This document shows, one piece after another, positions 2,793-34,924 of a stretch of DNA of 64,000 nucleotides. The DNA comes from a virus. The stretch spans positions 42,820-106,819 of IMG/VR virus record IMGVR_UViG_3300042451_001197. One strand, written 5' to 3'. How positions within the stretch are numbered: position 1 is the stretch's first letter; every line of letters starts with the position of its first letter. A program made the translations under genes and the position numbers. Below the pieces are notes generated by a model. That model made no database searches, had not been told where the DNA came from, and saw only the letters and a program-made list of their open reading frames with translations.

Positions 2793-3152
2793 CTATTTCA
2801 AATTCATAAGCTTAACACCAACCGTATTCCCAAAAGACCTTGTATCTACGCCAATATTGGATAACATATCTTTAATTTCATTTGATAATATGCTATGATG
2901 GAATCCATCAAGTTTCTTTTTTATTTTATATTCATCATTATAGTTAAATGTTCGAGGTAAAGGAATGTCAGTATAAACCTCAACAATCCAATTATAATAT
3001 TCATCGTCATTAGCGTGTCTTGATTTTATTTCAAACTCATAATCAAAATCTATGTCGGTTACTTTTTTAAGATAAGAATTAATTACGTTATTAATTGTTT
3101 TTCCAAATACAACGTCAAATGACTTATTTCCAAAATACGAATGTAATCCCAT
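2793..3152 (-). CDS. Hypothetical protein
   Basis: 119 residues starting MGLHSYFGNKSFDVVF; it lacks the tag of its neighbours. Mixed alpha/beta composition, no recognised domain. ATATTTATTGTT lies directly upstream of the ATG, the late-type leader common in this block. Confidence 0.7.
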   Translation of the reverse strand: MGLHSYFGNKSFDVVFGKTINNVINSYLKKVTDIDFDYEFEIKSRHANDDEYYNWIVEVYTDIPLPRTFNYNDEYKIKKKLDGFHHSILSNEIKDMLSNIGVDTRSFGNTVGVKLMNLK

Positions 3153-28167: not shown

Positions 28168-28482
28168 TCACTTTCTACAGATTATTAAACTATCATTTTC
28201 CATTACAACATCACTTACCTCAATTGTCTTATTGGTTTGTTTGTTGACTAATATTACTGACTCCATACGCTTACCTACTTGATATGTAACTGAGTTTAAA
28301 TTACTATTAAGTACCGCAACATTAATTGAATGTCCTCGACCAGTTGAAACATTATATATTTTTAAACCTTTCAATTCTGTTGGAAGATTTTTATGGTCAT
28401 CCAAAAGGATTTCTGACGTTCCTGGGTCTGAACAACTTGATATTAATAATAAAGTTGTTATTGTTAAAATTATTTTTTTCAT
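28168..28482 (-). CDS. Small lipoprotein
   Basis: 104 residues with a clear lipoprotein signal MKKIILTITTLLLISSCSDP (lipobox ISSC). The mature part is beta-rich. It overlaps the upstream gene by four bases. A periplasmic or outer-membrane role in the infected host is likely. Confidence 0.85.
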   Translation of the reverse strand: MKKIILTITTLLLISSCSDPGTSEILLDDHKNLPTELKGLKIYNVSTGRGHSINVAVLNSNLNSVTYQVGKRMESVILVNKQTNKTIEVSDVVMENDSLIICRK

Positions 28483-28868
28483 TTTTTCTTCTTAGATTTT
28501 GATTTGGTTTCAAATTCTTCGGTATGTTCGTATGCTCCGTCAGGACCTATTTGAAAGTCGTCAGATACAAAAGGCGGCTCATCTTCTAATCCATCCATTA
28601 ATGTTACATCCCATATAGTTAAATCTTCACGTAATGATATTCTAGCGTATTTAATCGCTTCAAACGATAATGTCTCTCCACGAGTAGGTTCTAAGTCTTT
28701 TGGTATATAAGGAATTATTTCAAAGTCTACTTCATCACCATCTTTATAAAATCCTTGTTTACCTGATTGTTCACCTAACCACCAGTTTTGATTTGGTTCT
28801 ATTGGTGTTGGTTTTCCATCGTGTTTAACAAACCAACTATCTTCTGTTTTATGTAGAGTGCCTTTCAT
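28479..28868 (-). CDS. MxGTLHKTExxW family protein carrying a shared module
   Basis: 129 residues. The N-terminus is the MKGTLHKTEDSWFVKHDG family domain. The C-terminal region WDVTLMDGLEDEPP...SDDFQIGPDGAYEHTEEF is nearly identical to part of the neighbouring protein at 28872-29324, which belongs to a different family. This indicates recent gene conversion or a mobile segment. Confidence 0.8.
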   Translation of the reverse strand: MKGTLHKTEDSWFVKHDGKPTPIEPNQNWWLGEQSGKQGFYKDGDEVDFEIIPYIPKDLEPTRGETLSFEAIKYARISLREDLTIWDVTLMDGLEDEPPFVSDDFQIGPDGAYEHTEEFETKSKSKKKK

Positions 28869-28871
28869 ATG

Positions 28872-29324
28872 TTATTTTGTTTTAGGTGATTCTAAATTTT
28901 CCTTCAGCCAATTCCAAACCATTTTTCTATATTCCTCGTCCCAAGTTTCAAACTCTTCGGTGTGTTCACATACTCCGTCAGCTCCGTCAAATTCTTCGGT
29001 ATGTTCGTATGCTCCGTCAGGACCTATTTGAAAGTCATCAGATATATATGGTGGTTCATCTTCCAATCCATCCATTAATGTTACATCCCAATCAGATAGG
29101 TCATCAGAATAAGTTTCGTTGTAGTATTCTTCACCCTTTTTAAGTACTTCTTTTAGGTGATGTGTTTTTAATCCACTTCCGTGAACAACAGAATATATTA
29201 CCTGTTCTTTCTCCATTTCTTTAGCTTGTTCAAAAGCCTTTGAACCTTCCTGAATTGTTGCTTCTTGGTTATCATTGAACCATCTAAATAACCACTCAAC
29301 CGCGGTTTGTTTTTTATTTTCCAT
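28872..29324 (-). CDS. MENKKQTAVEWL family protein carrying a shared module
   Basis: 150 residues from MENKKQTAVEWLFRWFNDN, chosen because the two upstream paralogues start the same way. QAKEMEKEQVIYSVVHGSG and YYNETY are family landmarks. Before the C-terminus the WDVTLMDGLEDEPP...AYEHTEEF module is inserted, followed by a partial second copy of its end (GVCEHTEEFETW). It overlaps the upstream gene by 11 bases. Confidence 0.8.
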   Translation of the reverse strand: MENKKQTAVEWLFRWFNDNQEATIQEGSKAFEQAKEMEKEQVIYSVVHGSGLKTHHLKEVLKKGEEYYNETYSDDLSDWDVTLMDGLEDEPPYISDDFQIGPDGAYEHTEEFDGADGVCEHTEEFETWDEEYRKMVWNWLKENLESPKTK

Positions 29325-29541
29325 AAATTTCATTATAATAATTTTCAGCGTCTTTAGCTCCACCCCAATCTGAACATCCGTATTTTACCGCACTACATAT
29401 TTGTTCCTTTTCCTCTTCTAATAACTCAACCGCCTTGTCGATTGCTTCTCCAAAGCTAAGTGTTTTTTGTGGGTGTTTGAGTAACATTTCATCACCCCAA
29501 GATATTAGTTCTTGTAATGCTGTTCGTTTTTTATTTTCCAT
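29314..29541 (-). CDS. MENKK(Q/R)TA family small protein
   Basis: 75 residues from MENKKRTALQELISWGDEM. It contains AVELLEEEKEQICSAVKYG and ends NYYNEIYGK. It overlaps the genes on both sides by 11 bases through the shared sequence ATGGAAAATAAA, so stop and start are interlocked. Confidence 0.75.
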   Translation of the reverse strand: MENKKRTALQELISWGDEMLLKHPQKTLSFGEAIDKAVELLEEEKEQICSAVKYGCSDWGGAKDAENYYNEIYGK

Positions 29542-32323: not shown

Positions 32324-33124
32324 TTAGATGGGTAAATTTACCTTTGATAGTAGTTGGTTTGAAACGTGAGTGTAAATTTCGGTAGTTTTTACATTTGAGT
32401 GACCTAATATTTTCTGAATTACTCTTATATCAGTACCATTCTCTAAAAGATTTGTTGCAAAACTATGTCTTAATTGATGTATGTGATATTTTTCACCCAA
32501 ATATTTTTTAACAATTTGATTACAACTACCAGAACTATATTGTAAACTATTTTGACCATTGAAAAGGTATTCTTTTGGTTGACACTCTTTGAAGTATATT
32601 CTTAATAAGAATAAGATGTTCTGGGAAAGTGGAACTACTCTATCTTTTCTACCTTTAGCGTTTTTAATATGAATAATCATTCTTTTGGAATCGATATCTT
32701 CAATTTTAAGGTTAATTACTTCCGATACTCTTAATCCGACCGAATAAGTTAAAGATAATATCGTTTTATGTTTAAGATTGGTAATTTTAGATAATTGTTC
32801 TTTAATATACTCTCCATCAATAACCTGTGGTAACTTCTTCTCAGATTTAGGTCGTTTGAATGAAACTTTATCATACTTCTTATTTAACCCAAATTTGTAA
32901 AGAAAACGGATTGCGTTTATTACTTGGTTTTGTTGAGATACTGAGGTGAATTTATAATTATCCAGATACGTTTGAAAATCTTTGGAATTGCAGTGTGTTA
33001 TTTGTTTAGCGCCTAACGTATTTAAGAAATTTCGTATATGCGAAAGATAATTATCGCGAGTTCTTGGTGAATAGTTTAAATATATAAACTTTTCTTCACA
33101 AATCTTTATAATTTTAGTGTTCAA
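32324..33124 (-). CDS. Tyrosine recombinase of the integron-like array
   Basis: 266 residues. Catalytic residues are all visible: Arg132 in SVGLRVSE, a lysine near 156-158 in the beta-hairpin, His216 and Arg219 in HIHQLRHSF, His242 in LGHSN and Tyr251 in TEIYTHV. An N-terminal core-binding domain occupies about 1-95. The extra patch typical of IntI integron integrases between the second and third boxes is not evident, so it is closer to XerC/XerD-type enzymes. The best start is TTG at 33124, as stop codons lie just upstream. Cassettes with attC-like sites lie immediately on its 5' side. Confidence 0.9.
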   Translation of the reverse strand: MNTKIIKICEEKFIYLNYSPRTRDNYLSHIRNFLNTLGAKQITHCNSKDFQTYLDNYKFTSVSQQNQVINAIRFLYKFGLNKKYDKVSFKRPKSEKKLPQVIDGEYIKEQLSKITNLKHKTILSLTYSVGLRVSEVINLKIEDIDSKRMIIHIKNAKGRKDRVVPLSQNILFLLRIYFKECQPKEYLFNGQNSLQYSSGSCNQIVKKYLGEKYHIHQLRHSFATNLLENGTDIRVIQKILGHSNVKTTEIYTHVSNQLLSKVNLPI

Positions 33125-33170
33125 GTTATTTATTTTTAATCAGTTAGACTATACTTGTTTATATATAATA

Positions 33171-33275
33171 GTTATAAGTAATTTTTGAAACCGAAGACCC
33201 GAACTTCTTTAGTACTCCCTAATCACACCCGAAAAGAGTAGTGATTCCCATAAGTTTCAAAAACATACTTATAAC
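33171..33275 (-). repeat. Gene-less cassette: 105-bp imperfect palindrome with pseudoknot potential
   Basis: The outer arms GTTATAAGTA (33171-33180) and TACTTATAAC (33266-33275) are perfectly complementary. A second pair, TTTTTGAAAC and GTTTCAAAAA, lies inside. In the centre AATCAC/GTGATT and TACTC/GAGTA interleave as in an H-type pseudoknot (minus strand). No open frame. It may be a structured RNA cassette, a regulatory element or the remains of the primary attachment site. Confidence 0.6.
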
Positions 33276-33323
33276 AAATGATAAACAACATTAAAACGAT
33301 TGTTTATCATCAGTCGTTAGGTT
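33268..33323 (-). other. attC-like site A
   Basis: On the minus strand R'' AACCTAAC, then L'' ATGATAAACAA, loop TCGTTTTAATG, L' TTGTTTATCAT and R' GTTATAAG. The L arms pair perfectly over 11 bp. R'' matches RYYYAAC. It follows the gene of cassette 1. Confidence 0.75.
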
Positions 33324-33331
33324 CAATTAAA

Positions 33332-33553
33332 TTATTGTTTTGAGTTTAATATATTTTTCTCAACCCATTCAGAAGAAAAATATGGTAGTCCTTCTTCATT
33401 GATAACTCTATTCAAATCTTCAACAAGTTCCTTTCTTTGTGTCATTTGTTTCAATTTTTCTTCTTCATTAAATTTCATACACTCTCTATCAAACTTAATA
33501 CGTTCTTTCATATCAAGATTTTTATACATTTCAAATAATTCTTTCATTTTCAT
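33332..33553 (-). CDS. Cassette 1 protein, hypothetical
   Basis: 73 residues from the first in-frame ATG (MKMKELFEMYKNLDMKERIK), ending NILNSKQ. Highly charged and helical. The stop codon lies nine bases before attC site A, as in integron cassettes. Upstream frame extension crosses attC site B and is not needed. No recognised domain. Confidence 0.7.
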   Translation of the reverse strand: MKMKELFEMYKNLDMKERIKFDRECMKFNEEEKLKQMTQRKELVEDLNRVINEEGLPYFSSEWVEKNILNSKQ

Positions 33554-33591
33554 ATTTATATTTTTTAATTTGTAAAACAATAATTTAACTA

Positions 33592-33648
33592 AACCTAACA
33601 AATGATAAACAACATTAAAACGATTGTTTATCATCGGACGTTAGTGGC
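33592..33648 (-). other. attC-like site B
   Basis: On the minus strand R'' GCCACTAAC and R' GTTAGGTT, the latter a perfect GTTRRRY. The central region is identical to site A apart from three bases (about 44 bp repeated 324 bp apart). The stop codon TAA of the cassette 2 gene lies inside R'', a classical integron feature. Confidence 0.8.
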
Positions 33649-33853
33649 AATTTGAGCCAAATAAATAATTATATTCGTTCATATACCATTTTTCATCTAT
33701 TGAATGTTGTATAAATCTAAGAGGATGTGTGCTTTTTAAGCATTTATTGCGTATTTTAGCTAATGCCTCTGAATGAGATAAACTGCCACTAACAACAGAT
33801 ATAATCAATGGTGAGAATATCTTTTCATCTAACCTTTGTTCTTTATTCATCAT
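33641..33853 (-). CDS. Cassette 2 protein, hypothetical
   Basis: 70 residues. The start codon and first 18-20 residues (MMNKEQRLDEKIFSPLIIS) are encoded in the large loop and arm of attC site C, which belongs to the preceding cassette. The rest, from VVSGSLSHSEAL, is encoded in cassette 2. The stop is in R'' of site B. So the protein is a fusion across a recombination junction. Function unknown. Confidence 0.65.
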   Translation of the reverse strand: MMNKEQRLDEKIFSPLIISVVSGSLSHSEALAKIRNKCLKSTHPLRFIQHSIDEKWYMNEYNYLFGSNCH

Positions 33854-33913
33854 TTTTTGTTTTTAAATTTGTTCCTTTTACACCACTGATTATATCTGCA
33901 AACCGTTAGTGAT
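33785..33913 (-). other. attC-like site C with start codon in its loop
   Basis: On the minus strand R'' ATCACTAAC and R' GTTAGTGGC. The arms beginning CAGATATAATCA pair with the mirror TGATTATATCTG and continue to 18 bp with a single G-T pair. The 69-nt loop carries ATGATGAATAAAG, the start of the next gene. Length about 129 bp, within the known attC range. Confidence 0.75.
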
Positions 33914-33916
33914 AAT

Positions 33917-34159
33917 TTATTTCTTAACAATCTTATATCCAAATTTGTCCAAAAGTTCTCTTATTTCCTTAGGTATTTCTCTTTCCATACCACCACAACT
34001 CATTCTGGTTCCAAGTGGTATTCTTTCCCAAATTTTCATAAGTAGTGTTAAAGTTTCCTTCGGAGATAAACTATCACTAACATCAGATATATTCAAGTTT
34101 TCTGATTCAGTTAGTTTCTGTTTGAAAGTGTCTATGTATTTTCTCATTTCGTGTTTCAT
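33917..34159 (-). CDS. Cassette 3 protein, hypothetical
   Basis: 80 residues. The N-terminus MKHEMRKYIDTFKQKLTESENLNIS is encoded within attC site D; from DVSDSLSPKETLTLL onward it is encoded in cassette 3. The junction codons GTT-AGT (Val-Ser) are in the same frame as in cassette 2. The stop lies just before R'' of site C. The C-terminal EIPKEIRELLDKFGYKIVKK is helical. Function unknown. Confidence 0.7.
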   Translation of the reverse strand: MKHEMRKYIDTFKQKLTESENLNISDVSDSLSPKETLTLLMKIWERIPLGTRMSCGGMEREIPKEIRELLDKFGYKIVKK

Positions 34160-34218
34160 AATTTTGTTTTATATATAAATATCAGAAAACCTAAATATAT
34201 CTGAGTACCGTTATATAT
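34073..34218 (-). other. attC-like site D with start codon in its loop
   Basis: On the minus strand R'' TATATAAC and R' GTTAGTGAT. The arms TCAGATATATT/AATATATCTGA (11 bp) and GTTTTCTGAT/ATCAGAAAAC (10 bp) are perfect, separated by a 3-nt internal loop. The terminal loop contains the ATG of the cassette 3 gene. The stop of the phosphoesterase gene at 34211 falls in R''. Confidence 0.75.
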
Positions 34219-34888
34219 CAAAAACATTTCCATTACTACATAATTTACCAAACTTACCATCTGTTACCACACTACCATTACTGAATATGGTATCGATATT
34301 CGGTATCTTTCTAACACCAGAGTTTATAATGTCCTCACAATTGTGTATGTGTCCGAATAAAGATAACTTTGGTTTAATCTCAAAGATACGTTTTCTTAAA
34401 GATGTGTCACCACAAAACTCCAATTCGTTTTCTCTATTATAAGATAAATCTAAGATTGTGCTTGGTGGTCCGTGAGTGATAACAATATCGGTATCAGTTG
34501 GAATCTGTTTCCAAACTTCGTGGGTTTTCATTCTGTTTTTATTGAATGCCCATCCTATACCAAATGTTGGTGTTATCGGAGAACCCCATATCTTAATTCC
34601 TTCAATCTCAACGGACTCGTTCTCCAAGTAAATTATTCCACCATCATTGAAATTATCTTTTGTGATATATTTTCTTTCTATTGATGTGTCGTGATTTCCC
34701 GAAACAAAAATCTTATACTTTATAGGTAAAGATTTATACCACTCAATAAAGTTTTCCATCTCAATCTTGTTTGGTAAAGGTTCTCTTGGGTTGGTTGCGT
34801 CTCCACTATGGATGACCATATCAATATTCTCGGGTATTGTTAATAACCCGTGAAAGGTGTGAGTGTCAGATATGTGCCAGATTTTCAT
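34211..34888 (-). CDS. Calcineurin-like metallophosphoesterase
   Basis: 225 residues from MKIWHISDTHTFHG. Motifs in order: HISDTH, VIHSGDA, VSGNHDT, ITHGPP and LFGHIH, all expected for the two-metal site. The layout resembles the MPPED-type group of phosphodiesterases. The start at 34888 follows the promoter; earlier codons are promoter sequence. Its stop codon lies in attC site D, so it may be the oldest cassette or simply the gene next to the array. It supplies the nearest promoter for the cassettes. Confidence 0.9.
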   Translation of the reverse strand: MKIWHISDTHTFHGLLTIPENIDMVIHSGDATNPREPLPNKIEMENFIEWYKSLPIKYKIFVSGNHDTSIERKYITKDNFNDGGIIYLENESVEIEGIKIWGSPITPTFGIGWAFNKNRMKTHEVWKQIPTDTDIVITHGPPSTILDLSYNRENELEFCGDTSLRKRIFEIKPKLSLFGHIHNCEDIINSGVRKIPNIDTIFSNGSVVTDGKFGKLCSNGNVFDI

Positions 34889-34892
34889 AATA

Positions 34893-34924
34893 CAAAGATA
34901 CGAAATTATTCTCAAATAACCAAA
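34893..34924 (-). promoter_or_regulatory. Bacteroidota-type promoter
   Basis: TATCTTTG (complement of 34893-34900) and TTTG (complement of 34921-34924), 20 bp apart, four bases before the ATG at 34888. Read-through would transcribe cassettes 3, 2, 1 and the recombinase. Confidence 0.85.

Follow-up and report, generated by a model that had tools for sequence, protein, structure and literature searches.

Integrons, including the sedentary chromosomal ones, comprise a recombinase, an attI site and small cassettes in an array, each delimited by RYYYAAC/GTTRRRY hairpins (attC). The two ends of one cassette are complementary, folding of the bottom strand is preferred, and attC sites fall into length classes of up to ∼125 nt. 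The integrase, IntI, carries an additional domain, the I2 or patch helix; according to the published view, cassette capture requires this helix, and the ability to recombine single strands comes from it (PMC7790495). In the current model, this helix enabled hairpin cassette recombination by docking extrahelical bases. Archaeal integrons have likewise been recognised through the IntI-specific domain, and the same study noted reverse-oriented integrons of the Spirochaetota type (PMC9668308). Integrons and attC clusters have also been reported in phages, in these cases with IntI or with no integrase (PMC9892861). Here we describe a locus sharing all the integron features listed first, located in a 64,000-nt stretch (the window) of the 106.8-kb virus record IMGVR_UViG_3300042451_001197, where a tyrosine recombinase gene adjoins four attC-like sites. 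We consider it likely, with a probability of roughly 85%, that this is a cassette array run by its recombinase, that is, a phage-borne integron-like platform. What would be new is an integron variant run by a non-IntI recombinase; the platform would work like an integron but falls outside the integron by the integrase definition.

On the minus strand, from 34212 down to 33171, the four sites, each built as AACG–stem–loop–stem–GTT, are interleaved with cassette bodies (Table 1). The preliminary description of this DNA had proposed four such sites beside a tyrosine recombinase, and our scanner found exactly these, S1–S4, on both strands of the whole window, while Markov-shuffled windows gave 0–2 sites per strand (mean 0.65). 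The proposed core complementarity of 8–10 bases within each cassette was also borne out (Table 1); the ends of cassette 3, where it is shortest, agree at 6 of the 7 test positions. A stop codon inside R″ was seen as described, namely the TAA of the 70-amino-acid open reading frame (ORF; CACTAAC, 33641–33643), and in addition the TAA stop of the neighbouring metallophosphoesterase gene (ATATAAC) falls within the outermost R box. At the other end, the attI-like site, an R box followed by TATTATATATAA, lies ∼50 nt ahead of the recombinase gene.

We scanned IMG/VR with the window recombinase and obtained 80 loci, many on contigs longer than 100 kb, from which 223 cassettes in 60 arrays were parsed, a few of the arrays being near-duplicates (L002/L004, L040/L041 and L066/L067). 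In the related phages, the same recombinase stands beside similar yet different arrays. The attC-like sites are almost confined to one side of it: the upstream DNA (275 kb) contains 200 and the downstream DNA (403 kb) contains 2. The antisense strand is almost devoid of them. In loci with longer upstream DNA, the distance from the recombinase to the array end is ∼1.4, 4.8 and 7.2 kb, the several kb beyond being essentially site-free. The motif AACTA(N1–2)(A/T)TATAT/G, which would serve as the attI-like site at the last cassette end, precedes 47 of the 60 related recombinases at a distance of at most 150 bp, where 0.54 would be expected.

The ends of a cassette matched their own partner at 6–7 of the 7 positions beyond GTT in 147 of the 223 cassettes, compared with 10/223 when the partner came from a random other locus and 6/223 when the two sides of the same attC were compared; the mean match was 5.49 for the own partner versus 3.30 and 3.23 in these controls. 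As site finding drew on nothing but the L stem and the letters AACG/GTT, the self-match is not a product of it. The self-match is the expected trace of units that would formerly have been circular. Cassette turnover is suggested by a 242-bp cassette of L005 and L009, 86% identical and flanked by unrelated neighbours. Also, the S1 hairpin and the N-terminus that it encodes are nearly identical in L037 and L292 (2951–3085), where the recombinase is 63% identical, and a different ORF body follows from the R box onward; this recurrence is reminiscent of chromosomal integrons, whose attC sites are uniform. The differing arrays, the self-covariation of cassette ends and the single cassette between unrelated neighbours support the integron-like reading put forward earlier. 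Of the two things to be looked for in related genomes, other cassettes were found and a clear empty site was not: an exact search for the empty attI TATATAACTANNATATATNA in viral contigs returned two further recombinase loci and no clear empty site.

The attC-like sites have a structure of their own. We built a covariance model from 37 sites of 46 nt from other phages, which have the R boxes and a TCGTTTTAATG loop in common, and this model recovered S3 and S4 (E-values in Table 1), the next best match having an E-value of 0.014. In 9 of the 11 L-stem pairs, both partners vary among these sites (65 cells versus 11.6 in shuffles). Upstream, the array strand carries the TCGTTTTAATG loop 52 times, and the loop is found nowhere else in those loci. 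Spacer lengths are conserved, and the L-arm sequences are diverse (110 different 9-mers among the 223 cassettes). Single-strand folding, another check suggested at the outset, favoured the array strand in 198 of 206 sites; for S2, the DNA fold is −18.2 versus −14.3 for the opposite strand. Extrahelical bulged bases, which give strand choice in integrons, are scarce although the strand bias is present: among ∼90 single-position stem defects, 79 were G·T mismatches and 4 were bulges. A G opposite a T in the stem is a frequent cause of the strand bias. The scanner found no attC in the Shewanella phage integron or the Aquabacterium plasmid that were meant as IntI controls, and the bulge scarcity is therefore compared with the literature only. 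As the 46-nt model had no match in 14 bacterial genomes, the 46-nt class may be phage-specific. Recombination would probably proceed through hairpins of single-stranded DNA, a reading in which we have less confidence than in the recombinase-run array.

The recombinase differs from IntI. Its best NCBIfam model was XerA_Arch (NF040815; 199.3 bits, under the equivalog cut-off of 220), and the integrase_gron model gave 169 bits in two stretches, which did not reach its cut-off of 265. The catalytic residues R132, K157, H216, R219 (HxxR), H242 and Y251 are invariant throughout the phage clade. The spacing from KGxxDR to LRH is 61 in the phages, 66–67 in the bacterial relatives, 108–109 in IntI and 71–76 in Xer; positions ∼182–237 of TIGR02249 have no match in the bacterial relatives, and the window protein lacks the IntI-specific additional domain. 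In an AlphaFold model (predicted local distance difference test score 81, predicted template modelling score 0.59, low at the C-terminus), no extra helix was present at the I2 position; the best match of this model among solved structures was the Vibrio cholerae integron integrase (2a3v, 9.4e-14), with XerA next. In the tree, IntI formed a single clade (support 100/100) that excluded the window protein, which grouped among the phage recombinases; these, together with 3 bacterial ones, had a support of 99/94. The patch-less recombinases and IntI were set apart from XerC/D (100/100), and host XerCD-type recombinases lie outside the phage group; the root is a midpoint only, and the basal order was unresolved. 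Judged by its sequence, the window recombinase is not an IntI, a point absent from the preliminary description, as were the lack of the usual bulges in attC and the similar arrays in bacteria. The NCBI family name, ‘tyrosine recombinase/integron integrase’, already hints at an integron link, and standard finders would miss this integrase because they require an IntI-specific profile. The recombinase shares with archaeal XerA and XerCD–dif a short two-domain organisation, but it is under the family cut-off and is linked to hairpin cassettes. We also noted that a plasmid tyrosine recombinase (TnpF, FJ012881; Acinetobacter and other plasmids, H31–H50) aligns with residues 48/61–266 at 47–49% and is closer than most.

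Related recombinases (∼40–55%) were present in Bacteroidota, Nitrospirota and other bacteria. At these loci, 43 sites were located downstream on the expected strand, whereas the three remaining positions had 8, 5 and 2; 24 of the 46 loci having enough sequence carried at least one site. Bacterial cassette ends matched their own partner in 26 of 35 cases (control, 1/35). Only one of 14 bacterial genomes bearing a related recombinase had an IntI above the curated cut-off. A search of the open-access literature, which did not extend to subscription papers and preprints, revealed no account of integrons run by a patch-less recombinase.

Next, we considered orientation. The recombinase was said to be transcribed in the same direction as the cassettes, opposite to standard integrons. 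The co-directionality stands, but it is not the integrase that is turned: on the plus strand, the integrase, attI and attC all have classical polarity, and the cassette ORFs are reversed, lying on the folding strand. In the phages, ORFs lay on the attC bottom strand in 210 of 223 cassettes with attC at the ORF 5′ end, not at the 3′ end as in integrons, and the ORF start was inside the hairpin in 66 of 102 long-attC cassettes. Bacterial cassette ORFs were classically oriented in 33 of 35 cases. In Spirochaetota-type integrons, the integrase and cassette ORFs are co-directional as here, and the integrase is the flipped part. The bacterial relatives of the window recombinase also have the integrase flipped, whereas the phages keep the classical integrase orientation to attI and flip the ORFs. 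Given cassette ORFs that run against attC, the phosphoesterase, the cassettes and the integrase could, we infer, be read as one transcription unit. A TTG-N-TAnnTTTG element is located at 34923 (minus), ahead of the phosphoesterase, with none from there to the integrase. Enrichment of Bacteroidota-type promoters (TAnnTTTG-type) within cassettes was considered and rejected (17 cassettes versus ∼22 matches expected).

The sites, cassette boundaries, self-covariation, attI motif, linkage, differences between phages and absence of I2 were read directly from the sequence. On this basis, we propose that the recombinase would recognise hairpins formed from one DNA strand of each cassette and also a double-stranded attI-like site beside its own gene. 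Circular cassettes would be inserted at the attI-like end, and also excised and reshuffled, which would yield a discrete array of small genes. The layout on the plus strand is classical, with the integrase reading away and attI followed by GTTRRRY–cassette–RYYYAAC–L″–L′–C GTTRRRY. The window recombinase itself would carry out recombination, the folded minus (bottom) strand would be the substrate, and cleavage would occur at RYYYAA^C. The cargo may aid the phage against its hosts.

Several observations weigh against this proposal. An I2 helix is deemed necessary for cassette capture and single-strand recombination in the literature (PMC7790495), and this recombinase has none; the scanner requires stems, so that stem statistics by themselves, such as the level of pairing, are partly circular; some attC clusters are distant from the recombinase in the same phages; and neither an empty site nor a recombination event was observed. 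The distant clusters, with the knowledge that phages can carry attC clusters with no integrase (PMC9892861) and that the closest named recombinase family is XerA-like, would fit an array that is a passenger, whose cassettes came from capture by a genuine host IntI, the phage recombinase having another role such as dimer resolution or genome integration. We find this unlikely. In dozens of phages the recombinase closes the array at one end, is immediately preceded by a conserved attI-like motif and has almost no sites on its other side, and IntI is rare in the bacterial genomes, several of which nevertheless carry arrays beside the related recombinase.

It is similarly doubtful that the recombinase acts on double-stranded dif-like R cores, as in Xer-mobilised modules, with the hairpins being incidental. 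Such an activity would suit an XerA-like sequence without I2 and an attI-like site that is AT-rich and dyad-like, but the L-arm sequences vary while their pairing persists through compensatory changes, folding consistently favours one strand, and spacer lengths are maintained. The preliminary description named, as the reading that would overturn it, palindromes that prove to be terminators or promoter repeats with no cassette gain or loss; any other interspersed repeat with immobile cassettes belongs to the same class of explanation. The hairpins are indeed intergenic and the region is AT-rich, but this explanation is very improbable: the sites are restricted to arrays at the recombinase, start codons lie inside many hairpins, and TAnnTTTG-type promoters are not enriched in the cassettes. 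It is already contradicted by the cassette ends, which covary within a cassette but not from one side of a hairpin to the other.

The phage array differs from known integrons in an integrase that has no I2/patch helix and does not belong to the IntI clade, in attC sites with a conserved G·T mismatch in place of bulges and a 46-nt class with the constant TCGTTTTAATG loop, and in cassette ORFs reversed relative to attC. The phage integrons reported earlier (PMC9892861) likewise have attC-like cassettes in a phage genome, but the arrays described here are linked, across dozens of phages of which many are large, to a recombinase that is not an IntI. Evenly balanced, in our opinion, is the idea that these loci represent a separate or ancestral integron lineage without I2 and extrahelical bases in Bacteroidota, Nitrospirota, other bacteria and large phages, with the I2-bearing IntI being a later specialisation inside or beside it. 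Traces of circular cassettes tied to I2-less recombinases and nearly bulge-free sites would make the origin of integrons directly testable, and large phages would gain a private gene-capture platform.

Table 1. Features of the recombinase and cassette locus, in window coordinates
Feature	Position	Strand	Description	Evidence
Tyrosine recombinase gene	32324..33124	-	266 amino acids, TTG start; no I2/patch insertion	PF00589 1.3e-38
attI-like site	33151..33173	-	R box AAC of last cassette, then TATTATATATAA	conserved motif in relatives
Cassette 4	33171..33318	-	no ORF; long terminal inverted repeat	10 contiguous complementary bases
attC-like site S4	33273..33318	-	46 nt; loop TCGTTTTAATG	scanner; covariance model E 2.5e-17
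Cassette 3	33316..33642	-	73-amino-acid ORF 33332-33553; end cores GTTAGGTTTAG / TTGAACCTAAC	8 contiguous complementary bases
attC-like site S3	33597..33642	-	46 nt; loop TCGTTTTAATG	scanner; covariance model E 1.9e-16
Cassette 2	33640..33907	-	70-amino-acid ORF 33641-33853; end cores GTTAGTGGCA / TGCCACTAAC	10 contiguous complementary bases
attC-like site S2	33791..33907	-	117 nt; holds start of 70-amino-acid ORF	scanner; 15-bp L stem
Cassette 1	33905..34212	-	80-amino-acid ORF 33917-34159; end cores GTTAGTGATA / TATCACTAAC	10 contiguous complementary bases
attC-like site S1	34079..34212	-	134 nt; holds start of 80-amino-acid ORF	scanner
Metallophosphoesterase gene	34211..34888	-	adjoins distal end of array; backbone gene	PF00149 6.5e-16

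Pfam matches were few among the 126 cassette proteins scanned; they comprised five DNA methyltransferases, a Mom-type DNA modifier, an RNA ligase, YopX and domains of unknown function (DUFs). This suggests, as a guess from few cassettes, that the cargo could be a swappable stock of counter-defence genes. The 70- and 73-amino-acid cassette proteins had no relative in the IMG/VR scans. Cassette 3 is spanned by a 41-nt inverted repeat (83%). The RNA fold of cassette 4 (−32.9; z = −5.6) is far more stable than that of shuffled sequences, and this cassette (33171–33276, minus) is possibly a non-coding RNA cassette; an Rfam search of the locus matched nothing relevant. ARAGORN detected no tRNA genes in the arrays upstream of the recombinases.

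Long attC sites of the S1 type (S1 in the window; 2951–3085 and 3895–4025 of L292; L018, L030, L033 and L034) encode a shared N-terminus, for example MKDLKHIKRFNESEENLNISDV, joined to many different ORF bodies. This N-terminus may resemble capsid-targeting leaders of T4-type internal proteins. Directly before the attI-like site in L012, L016, L024 and L030, we observed ∼30-bp units such as GTTATGTTCTCGTTTTAATGGAACATAAC, which are apparent minimal gene-less cassettes built on the TCGTTTTAATG loop. In L066/L067 (6001–6799), the recombinase is broken across two reading frames and the array is seemingly intact. The distant attC clusters, at ∼245 kb in G026, 116–122 kb in G021, 166–167 kb in G025 and ∼26 kb in G019, are like the integrase-less clusters of bacteria.

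Homologues of the metallophosphoesterase are present in many phages, the majority with no array alongside, and its role as a fixed array flank was rejected on this ground. The junction GATATATAAC|TATTATATATAA was not established as the original empty site; the phosphoesterase of L012 also ends in GATATATAA, and the array is absent there. Elsewhere in the window, two neighbouring minus-strand ORFs (28872–29363 and 28479–28868) have a repeated stretch, DWDVTLMDGLEDEPP..SDDFQIGPDGAYEHTEEFE, in common, and a related stretch occurs in L011.
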